Below are positions 14,987-16,906 of a stretch of DNA of 36,814 bases, in pieces (positions within the stretch are counted from its first letter, which is position 1; every line of letters starts with the position of its first letter). The notes beneath the pieces were generated by a model. The model was not told the DNA's origin. It saw only the letters and a program-made list of their open reading frames with translations, and did not search any database. The position numbers and the translations under genes are program-made. The stretch is from Chitinophagaceae bacterium (GTDB taxonomy: Bacteria > Bacteroidota > Bacteroidia > Chitinophagales > UBA10324). Location: positions 1 through 36,814 of the forward strand of contig CANJII010000031.1 in NCBI GenBank assembly GCA_947474435.1, written 5' to 3'.

Positions 14987-15020
14987 AAAAAAAAAGCTTC
15001 GATAAAATCGAAGCTTTTTT
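14987..15020 (-). terminator. Intrinsic terminator after tsf
   Basis: An eight-base perfect core stem, GCTTCGAT (14996-15003) with ATCGAAGC (15007-15014), has a 3-nt loop and is extended by A/T pairs. On the minus strand it is followed by a run of nine T. It should end most transcripts from the ribosomal operon before pyrH. Confidence 0.85.
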
Positions 15021-15024
15021 CTTT

Positions 15025-15852
15025 TTAGCTCAATGACATTCTTATAAAAGAATTGACTTTTAAGTTCGGGTCAATTTCTTTCAATACATCAGCCACAGTT
15101 TTATCGTTGTTCTTTACGAACTGCTGATTAATCAAAGTATTTTCTTTAAAGAATTTTTGCAATTTGCCTGCAGCAATTTTATCAATCATGTTTTCAGGTT
15201 TGCCTTCTGCTTTAATTTGCTCGCGGGCAATATCCAACTCACGGTCAATGGTTGCTTGTGGCACATCATCCTTGTCAACAGCAACCGGACTCATAGCAGC
15301 AATTTGCATGGCAATGTCTTTTCCGGTTCCTTCTAACTTAGGTGAATTAATGCTGTATGAAACCAACACGCCAACTTTATAACCAGTGTGGATGTAAGGA
15401 ACAACGAGTGCCCCTTCAATCCGCTCAAATTTTTTGATTGAAATATTCTCACCGATTTTTCCAACAAGGTCAGAAATTTTGTCGGCTACAGTGCGAGTTT
15501 CATAAGGAAGAGACATTGCTTCGGCAACAGTTTTTACATTGTTAATCAAAGCAAGTTCAGCCACTTCTTTTGCAAAGCCAACGAACTCTTCATTCTTCCC
15601 AACGAAATCGGTTTCGCAACCAAGGTTCAATGCAATACCTGATTTTCCGTCAATTGAAGTGATGGCTATTACTACTCCTTCTTTGGCATCGCGGTCAGAT
15701 CGAAGCGCTGCTACTTTTTGTCCTTTCTTACGAAGTAAATCTATGGCTGCTTCAAAATCTCCATTGGCTTCCACCAATGCTTTTTTGCAATCCATTAAAC
15801 CTGCGCCTGTTTTTTTGCGAAGTTCGTTAACGGCTGATGCAGTTATTTCCAT
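15025..15852 (-). CDS. tsf: Translation elongation factor Ts
   Basis: EF-Ts is the guanine-nucleotide exchange factor that recycles EF-Tu in translation elongation. The 275-residue protein starts with the UBA-like domain ([19 protein letters not shown]). It then has the core contact segment [12 protein letters not shown], and later I-A-M-Q-I-A-A-M and [13 protein letters not shown]. Length is normal. It lies 36 bp after rpsB, the almost universal rpsB-tsf pairing, and is followed by a strong terminator. Start ATG at 15852. Confidence 0.97.
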
Positions 15853-15888: not shown

Positions 15889-16869
15889 TTATTTACGAGT
15901 GCGATTTCCGCCACCACCACCAGGGCGACCTGCGCCACCACCGGCTCCGGTTCCGCCACCACGATTTCCTCCTGTTCCGCTACCACCACGACCTCCGCCG
16001 CTTCCACTACCACCACGAGTTCCACCACCTGATTTACCTGCACCACCACGACCACCGCCTGCTCCTCTTGGTCCTTTTTTCTTTTCGCCATCAGCACCTT
16101 CTTCCACTTCGGCAAATGCTCCGTGTCCTTCAGCACCTTCTTCGCTGTCATCACCACCTTCAGCAGCTTCGTCTTTATCTTTCTTTCTTTCACCCAAACC
16201 TTCAATCATTGCTTCGGTCAGGAAATTGGTGATGATAGAAATTGATTTAGTTGCATCGTCGTTTGCCGGAATGGCAAAGTCAACAGTTGTTGGATCAGAG
16301 TTAGTATCAACCATTCCGAAAGTTGGAATGTTCAATCTTTTTGCTTCTGCCAATGCAATGTGTTCGTGAGTAATGTCAACTAAAAATATAGCAGCAGGCA
16401 ATCGACCGAGTTGTGCAATACCGCCCAATACTTTTTCCAGCTTAGCTCTTTCACGCTCTAATTGCAGGCGCTCTTTCTTGGTAATGTTTTCGAAAGTACC
16501 ATCGGCCATCATCTTCTCAATGCTCTGCATTTTTTTGATCGACTTACGAATGGTAGAAAAGTTAGTGAGCATTCCGCCCAACCATCTTTCAGTTACGAAA
16601 GGCATGTTTACGCGGGTTGCCGCATCAGCCACAATTGCTTTCGCTTGTTTCTTGGTGGCAACAAATAATATTTTCTTTCCGCTGCGGGCAATACTGCGCA
16701 ATGCAGCTGCAGCCGCTTCAGAAGCTTCAATGGTTTTATTAAGGTCAATTAAATGAATTCCTTTTTTCTCCATGAAGATATAAGGAAGCATTTTCGGATT
16801 CCACTTTTTGCGCAAGTGCCCGAAGTGAACTCCTGCGTCTAATAAATCGGTGTGGGTTAGTTTTTCCAT
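15889..16869 (-). CDS. rpsB: Ribosomal protein uS2 with acidic linker and RGG/glycine-rich tail
   Basis: uS2 sits on the solvent side of the 30S subunit near the mRNA exit, where bS1, bS21 and bS18 also lie. Residues 1-228 are a normal uS2: H-T-D-L-L-D-A-G-V-H-F-G-H, W-N-P-K-M, F-V-T-E-R-W-L-G-G-M-L-T-N-F, V-D-T-N-S-D-P. Instead of ending near residue 230-250, the frame continues. Residues 231-262 are an acidic Asp/Glu-rich linker and residues 263-326 are a basic Gly-rich tail with repeated R-G-G, G-G-G-R-G-G and similar units. The tail DNA (about 15889-16080) is GC-rich simple repeat, unlike its neighbours. ATG at 16869 matches the family start; the longer frame to 16998 overlaps rpsI and is spurious. 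No stop or frameshift separates core and tail. RNA binding by the tail is inference. Confidence 0.95.
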   Translation of the reverse strand: MEKLTHTDLLDAGVHFGHLRKKWNPKMLPYIFMEKKGIHLIDLNKTIEASEAAAAALRSIARSGKKILFVATKKQAKAIVADAATRVNMPFVTERWLGGMLTNFSTIRKSIKKMQSIEKMMADGTFENITKKERLQLERERAKLEKVLGGIAQLGRLPAAIFLVDITHEHIALAEAKRLNIPTFGMVDTNSDPTTVDFAIPANDDATKSISIITNFLTEAMIEGLGERKKDKDEAAEGGDDSEEGAEGHGAFAEVEEGADGEKKKGPRGAGGGRGGAGKSGGGTRGGSGSGGGRGGSGTGGNRGGGTGAGGGAGRPGGGGGNRTRK

Positions 16870-16906
16870 TATGATGTAATGAATTGTAGATTTTAAATTG
16901 AAAAGA

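Follow-up and report, generated by a model that had tools for sequence, protein, structure and literature searches.

A predicted disordered, glycine- and arginine-rich C-terminal tail on ribosomal protein uS2 in Chitinophagales

A 2019 survey of low-complexity regions at the C termini of bacterial ribosomal proteins names S2, in its main text, as one of three proteins for which over 100 orthologs have such a region (PMC6821194). The protein lies at the back of the 30S subunit, at the hinge between head and body, and in Escherichia coli it is required for bS1 binding, is a late arrival in the 30S and, together with bS1, has a repressor activity away from the ribosome, as described in a 2024 review (PMC10931766). 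The review also states that why uS2 is essential in organisms that lack Shine-Dalgarno (SD) pairing has yet to be explained (PMC10931766). The Mycobacterium smegmatis ribosome is described as having bS1 beside uS2, close to the mRNA exit site, and the same source places the C-terminal domain of HPF at uS2 in Gram-positive 100S dimers (PMC6133939). Blindness to SD sequences is reported to be general to Bacteroidia (PMC9976891, PMC8710568), and an arm on uS2 may bear on how Bacteroidota choose start codons without SD pairing. Here we analyse such an arm, encoded in a 36,814-nt stretch of Chitinophagales DNA (hereafter, the window).

Coding sequence and selection

The rpsB gene occupies positions 15889–16869 on the minus strand of the window, in a frame that is open from its ATG (16869) to its stop codon (15889–15891), and its 326-residue product is the sole Ribosomal_S2 match in the 3.5-Mb assembly. 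The Pfam match spans residues 9–224 and the whole profile (1–216 of 216), at 305.5 bits against a cut-off of 26.1. The folded core (residues 1–228; 16186–16869, minus strand) is followed by an acidic linker (residues 231–262; 16084–16179, minus strand), inside which lies a short hydrophobic patch, F252-A-E-V255 (16105–16116, minus strand), and then by a Gly/basic tail (residues 263–326; 15892–16083, minus strand) that ends in GGGNRTRK. Residues 225–262 carry a net charge of −11. The 64 residues of the tail include 35 Gly, 8 Arg and 5 Lys and no Phe, Tyr or Trp, for a net charge of +13, and acidic and basic residues are segregated more than by chance (20,000 shuffles, P = 0.0001). The open 326-residue frame confirms the layout of an acidic linker and a 64-residue tail with no interrupting stop that had been proposed in an earlier note on this DNA. 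A tsf-like ORF (15025–15852), which we take from its sequence to be tsf, adjoins rpsB on the same strand. Just after this ORF, a stem of 14–17 pairs with T runs on both strands (14987–15023) looks like a bidirectional terminator separating it from the next ORF, presumably a pyrH-like gene by its sequence.

AlphaFold2, run with an alignment of 52 sequences, predicts most of the core confidently, with a last helix at residues 207–237. No secondary structure is predicted past residue 237, where pLDDT is mostly near or below 50; it is below 50 for most of residues 243–326. The best relative in the PDB is the 254-residue uS2 chain 9oy8_H, aligned to residues 3–243. None of 57 PDB chains with E up to 1e-30 aligns past residue 265, so no matched chain covers the Gly/basic tail.

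The local GC content peaks at 0.65 over the tail, compared with about 0.41 around it. The earlier note had described this DNA as a GC-rich simple repeat; the GC richness holds up, but the repeat does not. Tandem Repeats Finder returns no more than a pair of short arrays that overlap, with periods of 24 and 27 (2.6 and 2.3 copies, 69 and 83% matches), the Gly codons GGT (19), GGA (11) and GGC (5) occur in mixed order, and the GC content at third codon positions (GC3) is 0.21 in the tail versus 0.41 in the core. Because tail GC3 is below that of the core, the GC peak is a product of the encoded amino acids, through the first two letters of GGN codons. An origin of the tail in a DNA repeat or in GC drift is rejected by the repeat search, the mixed codons and the low GC3; core GC3 does not predict tail glycine content among 107 rows from the order (rho 0.16, P 0.10), a set in which the Gly/basic form is over-represented (see below). 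At the 3′ end of rpsB, an element acting as RNA is also rejected, given a fold z-score of −1.27 and the absence of Rfam matches in the window. Two other long frames over the tail, of 112 residues on the minus strand and 156 on the plus strand, are taken as by-products of the GGN codons, as most of the change seen in the frame of uS2 leaves the amino acid unaltered.

A codon alignment was made of the window and four congener assemblies (G001, G003, G004 and G005), the congener G002 having no match. The tail is present in all five genus members with the gene; its absence from all close relatives, the first part of what the earlier note had named as refuting evidence, is not observed. Differences in length between congeners are whole codons. 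The number of residues after residue 224 ranges from 76 to 102 within the genus and the middle of the tail is variable, while all five genus members begin the tail with KKK[GA]PRGAG and finish it with GGGNRTRK. Across the 10 congener pairs, dN/dS is 0.05–0.17 in the tail, where synonymous differences reach 0.72 per site, compared with 0 to 0.047 in the core and 0 to 0.29 in the linker; these ratios are approximate because alignment gaps in the low-complexity sequence are set so as to maximise matches, and both rates come out lower for it. Each of five pairs tested shows a significant excess of synonymous change in the tail (Fisher P 1e-6 to 3e-4). The whole-codon indels and the low tail dN/dS point to protein-level selection on the tail. 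Misassembly is unlikely because the same kind of tail is found in the four other congener assemblies, in a single-contig genome (G059/L025; Gly-rich tail, 83 residues after the core) and in isolate genomes such as those of Chitinophaga rupis DSM 21039 (L043) and C. niastensis DSM 24859 (L052). The uS2 tail is coding and real.

Distribution and order-wide architecture

We call a tail Gly/basic if it has at least 6 Gly and at least 2 Lys/Arg in some 20 residues. Our less biased sample of the order, 60 genomes chosen by kinship, yielded 56 complete tails (G002 and G020 had no match, and in G009 and G038 the gene is cut by a contig end). The Gly/basic form occurs in 24 of these 56, in 13 of the 14 from the window's family, and at least once in 8 of 21 families of the order. 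Families f2, f3, f17, f18 and f22, sampled with 2 or 3 genomes each, gave no Gly/basic tail, and all three f17 genomes have only 16–17 residues after the core. Outside the order, no Gly/basic tail was seen among 29 complete tails from the rest of the class (the best-scoring genomes, 28 of 78 with a match, plus G176) or among 48 from other classes (30 listed among 296 matching genomes, with a further 18 regions picked by hand, partly for long open frames). Tails there are shorter overall (medians of 33 residues in the rest of the class and 37 in other classes) and mostly Glu/Lys/Ala-rich.

A second set of loci was gathered with six peptide patterns, the 80 best of 371 relatives being retained. 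The linker and tail are the source of two patterns (ERKKDKDE and GGRGGAGK), and counts that use this set therefore overstate the Gly/basic form in the order; these include the order set beside the class comparison and the motif, charge-profile, tree, GC3 and hydrophobic-residue tallies. Loci recognised as duplicates were removed manually (L031, duplicating L012; L032, duplicating L014; L201, L202, L195 and L213), and removal of near-identical rows by similarity reduced 130 order tails to 115 for motif counts. A quick uS2 tree, from which L207, L212 and G061 (L143/L173) were also omitted, has 151 rows (107 from the order, 28 from the class and every third other-class row, 16) over 224 columns of one protein. 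The order falls on one side of a branch (SH-aLRT 98). Tail type changes at least 14 times among the 107 order rows, which over-represent the Gly/basic form, compared with a mean of 30.5 when labels are shuffled within the order. The tree and the tail counts together show a tail that is, in our sample, confined to the order, clustered within it and often gained or lost, and such patchiness makes it dispensable in many lineages.

Named relatives in these sets include Chitinophaga, Ferruginibacter, Segetibacter, Filimonas, Flavihumibacter, Sediminibacterium and other Chitinophagales, and it is on these relatives that our placing of the window in Chitinophagales is based. Nine Chitinophaga isolate records (L040, L041, L043, L052, L057, L058, L062, L063 and L068) have 104–119 residues after the core. 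Some record titles fit their uS2 poorly. One contig titled 'Phycisphaerales bacterium isolate MAG05' (L110, JASGCQ010000017.1) encodes a uS2 of the Chitinophagales kind, 73% identical and with a similar tail, and is probably a contaminant in that assembly. Six MAG records titled 'Chitinophaga pinensis' (L031, L035, L038, L050, L107 and L108) have uS2 sequences 65 to 98% identical to that of the window, so they cannot all be one species and the titles look unreliable. On viral contigs, 67 stretches fitted a pattern and none was confirmed.

Order-wide features were tallied, after removal of redundancy, in 87 tails of the order that have 6 or more Gly, a set that leans on the best 80 of 371 relatives. 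Mean net charge per residue is −0.50 at 11–20 residues past residue 224 and about +0.2 from 41 to 100, and in 84 of the 87 the final 30 residues have a net positive charge. Basic motifs recur, with [KR]RR[VTIP] in 47 tails (2.2 in shuffles), R[RK]P[AG]G in 34 (1.0 in shuffles) and a terminal Lys or Arg in 75 (17.6 in shuffles), excesses that are inflated by relatedness and follow rules set post hoc. Large hydrophobic residues peak 26–30 residues past residue 224, where they make up 25% of letters, compared with 0–7% in each later bin. Of 70 Gly/basic tails, 69 have a Phe, Leu, Met or Ile 21–33 residues past residue 224, where shuffles predict 23.8; among other tails of the order that reach this length the count is 19 of 31, with 11.6 predicted. 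Outside the order the frequency of such a residue is at the chance level (3/14 and 3/9). These excesses, too, are inflated by relatedness and follow rules set post hoc. The patch at this position differs by family (FAEVE, KFELEG, LEITEED, AARFE and RLEAEA) and may be two different elements.

Two RGG within 0–4 residues of each other define a di-RGG. The repeated RGG units that had drawn attention to this tail are there, four of them, but they are neither enriched beyond composition (mean 2.36 in same-residue shuffles, P = 0.17) nor clustered: the tail has no di-RGG, one di-RG and no tri-RG, and no RGG pair is 4 or fewer residues apart. Among the 70 Gly/basic order tails, 16 have a di-RGG and 15 a tri-RG. 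Order-wide, RGG occurs in 50 of 87 tails, compared with 37.6 in shuffles (shuffle maximum 49), a mild excess that is inflated by relatedness. The RGG unit is not the conserved feature; charge segregation and basic clusters are.

Readings of function

The reading that we prefer, and to which we give an even chance, is of a disordered C-terminal arm making a putative auxiliary RNA contact that helps 30S assembly or mRNA capture. The arm, of about 90 residues, would have three parts: an acidic linker that may space it and hold it off the rRNA, a hydrophobic patch at a near-fixed distance from the core that may dock onto a neighbouring protein, and a basic, Gly-rich end that could make loose, sequence-tolerant contacts with 16S rRNA or passing mRNA at the back of the 30S, near the bS1–uS2 site. 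Its role in assembly or mRNA capture would be auxiliary rather than essential. Counting for an RNA arm are the selection on the tail, its charge segregation, the recurrent basic motifs, the predicted disorder, the position of uS2 next to bS1 and a DEAD-box helicase in the same genome (G000:C7 46253–46768, L228; one of ten DEAD matches inspected) with a Ser/Gly/Arg-rich C-terminal tail. Counting against it are RGG content no higher than composition predicts, the lack of aromatic residues, the patchy occurrence and the acidic linker, which by itself would repel RNA. A genome search with the uS2 tail as query found only itself, which does not show uniqueness because the search missed the helicase tail. 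The only RRM match in the genome is a 92-residue frame (G000:C33 5823–6032, L227) without a Ser/Gly/Arg-rich tail.

What survives of the extra RNA-binding arm proposed earlier is a basic, Gly/Arg-rich extension of a 30S protein that is maintained and predicted to be disordered, with RNA contact as its likeliest use; the specific tie to SD-independent initiation finds no support. A gene for bS21, our stand-in for the SD-blind state, is present in 56 of 60 relatives, including all three short-tailed f17 genomes, and across the 60 we saw no sign of a link between bS21 and the Gly/basic tail, the presence of which does not follow the SD-blind state by this measure. Because f17 and the sampled Bacteroidota outside the order do without the arm (0 of 77 tails outside the order are Gly/basic), it is not needed for SD-independent initiation, and a helping role there is a possibility without specific support. 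The 30 bases 5′ of the rpsB start (16870–16899, minus strand) contain no SD-like stretch, nor do the 30 bases before the ATG of the neighbouring tsf-like and rpsI-like ORFs, the latter of which we take from its sequence to be rpsI. Unlike these three window genes, the bS21 gene (G000:C21 52636–52791, L190) has a strong SD-like AAAGGAGGT just before its ATG. This fits the autoregulation of rpsU, with a strong SD, described for several orders of Bacteroidia (PMC9976891, PMC8710568). The genome also has a bS1-like ORF (G000:C44 1915–3396, L219) with six matches to S1 and a C-terminal tail rich in Glu, Pro, Thr and Ala. The SD-poor leaders, the bS21 SD and bS1 all fit an SD-blind ribosome and do not single out the uS2 tail. 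A search of the assembly for 16S rRNA found none, by a method that was positive in only 9 of 14 control genomes.

Unlikely, though the best of the alternatives, is an arm for docking a protein, in which the acidic stretch and the patch form a functional motif for a partner such as bS1 or a biogenesis or hibernation factor, assisted by the basic end. The near-fixed position of the hydrophobic residue, in Gly/basic and other order tails alike, speaks for it, and the genome has bS1, which together with the HPF C-terminal domain of Gram-positive 100S dimers is described as using the uS2 site (PMC6133939). However, the patch varies between families and may be two elements, the partner is putative, and the long basic end is left unexplained. 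Somewhat less probable is an arm with a role in assembly or solubility, or one like that of a chaperone; its acidic and basic halves would bind one another or nascent rRNA, which would help free uS2 to remain soluble and to join the 30S. Opposite charges do adjoin in one chain, and the late joining and off-ribosome repressor activity of E. coli uS2 (PMC10931766) would suit such a role, but most sampled Bacteroidota outside the order have short or Glu/Lys-rich tails.

We rate lower still a weakly constrained disordered spacer, in which net charge and flexibility alone matter. The spread in length within one genus and the minimum of 14 switches in tail type across the order speak for a spacer; a tail dN/dS well below 1, termini kept in all five congeners and basic motifs that recur order-wide speak against it. 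A more ambitious form of the RNA arm, which we regard as improbable, would make the tail a dedicated second mRNA-capture arm at the uS2–bS1 site of Chitinophagales, its patch docking a conserved 30S partner and its Gly/basic end holding SD-less leaders near the exit channel; if so, ribosomes with and without the arm would prefer different mRNAs. An artefact, whether from GC-rich DNA that was misassembled or is prone to slippage or from an element at the nucleotide level where rpsB ends, has a negligible chance of being right: the local GC peak might suggest one, but independent genomes share the tail, its codons are mixed with AT-rich third positions, and the RNA fold score and Rfam search are negative.

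Comparison with known systems

Eukaryotic uS5 (RPS2) has an N-terminal Arg/Gly-rich arm that is disordered and arginine-methylated. The window tail resembles it in being Gly/Arg-rich, disordered by prediction and carried by a small-subunit protein, and differs from it in protein family and in terminus; no homology is implied. The window uS2 shows that a bacterial ribosomal protein can bear a Gly/Arg arm of a kind mostly discussed for eukaryotes. RNA-binding proteins with RGG/RG boxes are likewise disordered, Gly/Arg-rich and basic, whereas the window tail lacks their clustered RGG and their aromatic residues.

Among bacteria, the extensions of actinobacterial 30S proteins are also terminal, are in some cases near the mRNA entry or exit and have been proposed to act in initiation, as described for Cutibacterium acnes (PMC10085706) and Mycobacterium smegmatis (PMC6133939). 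They differ from the window tail in being on other proteins (uS5, bS16 and uS17, for example), in having other sequences and in being ordered in some cases (PMC10085706, PMC6133939). No description of a Gly/Arg tail on a bacterial uS2 was found in the titles, opening lines of abstracts and text excerpts of the literature searched, which comprised few subscription journals and no preprints. A patchy yet maintained arm offers natural comparisons with and without it inside a single order.

The closest described relatives are the C-terminal low-complexity tails of the 2019 survey, which match that of the window in position, low complexity, exposure at the ribosome surface and, for S2, in the protein itself (PMC6821194). 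The window uS2 belongs with them in being C-terminal, of low complexity and predicted disordered. According to the main text of the survey, those tails are on average mainly Ala/Glu/Lys-rich, although its supplement may hold Gly/Arg cases, whereas the window tail is acidic and then Gly/Arg-rich (PMC6821194). Low-complexity uS2 tails are already known in general, and the Gly/Arg form described here would, by its sequence, be a new variant of them.
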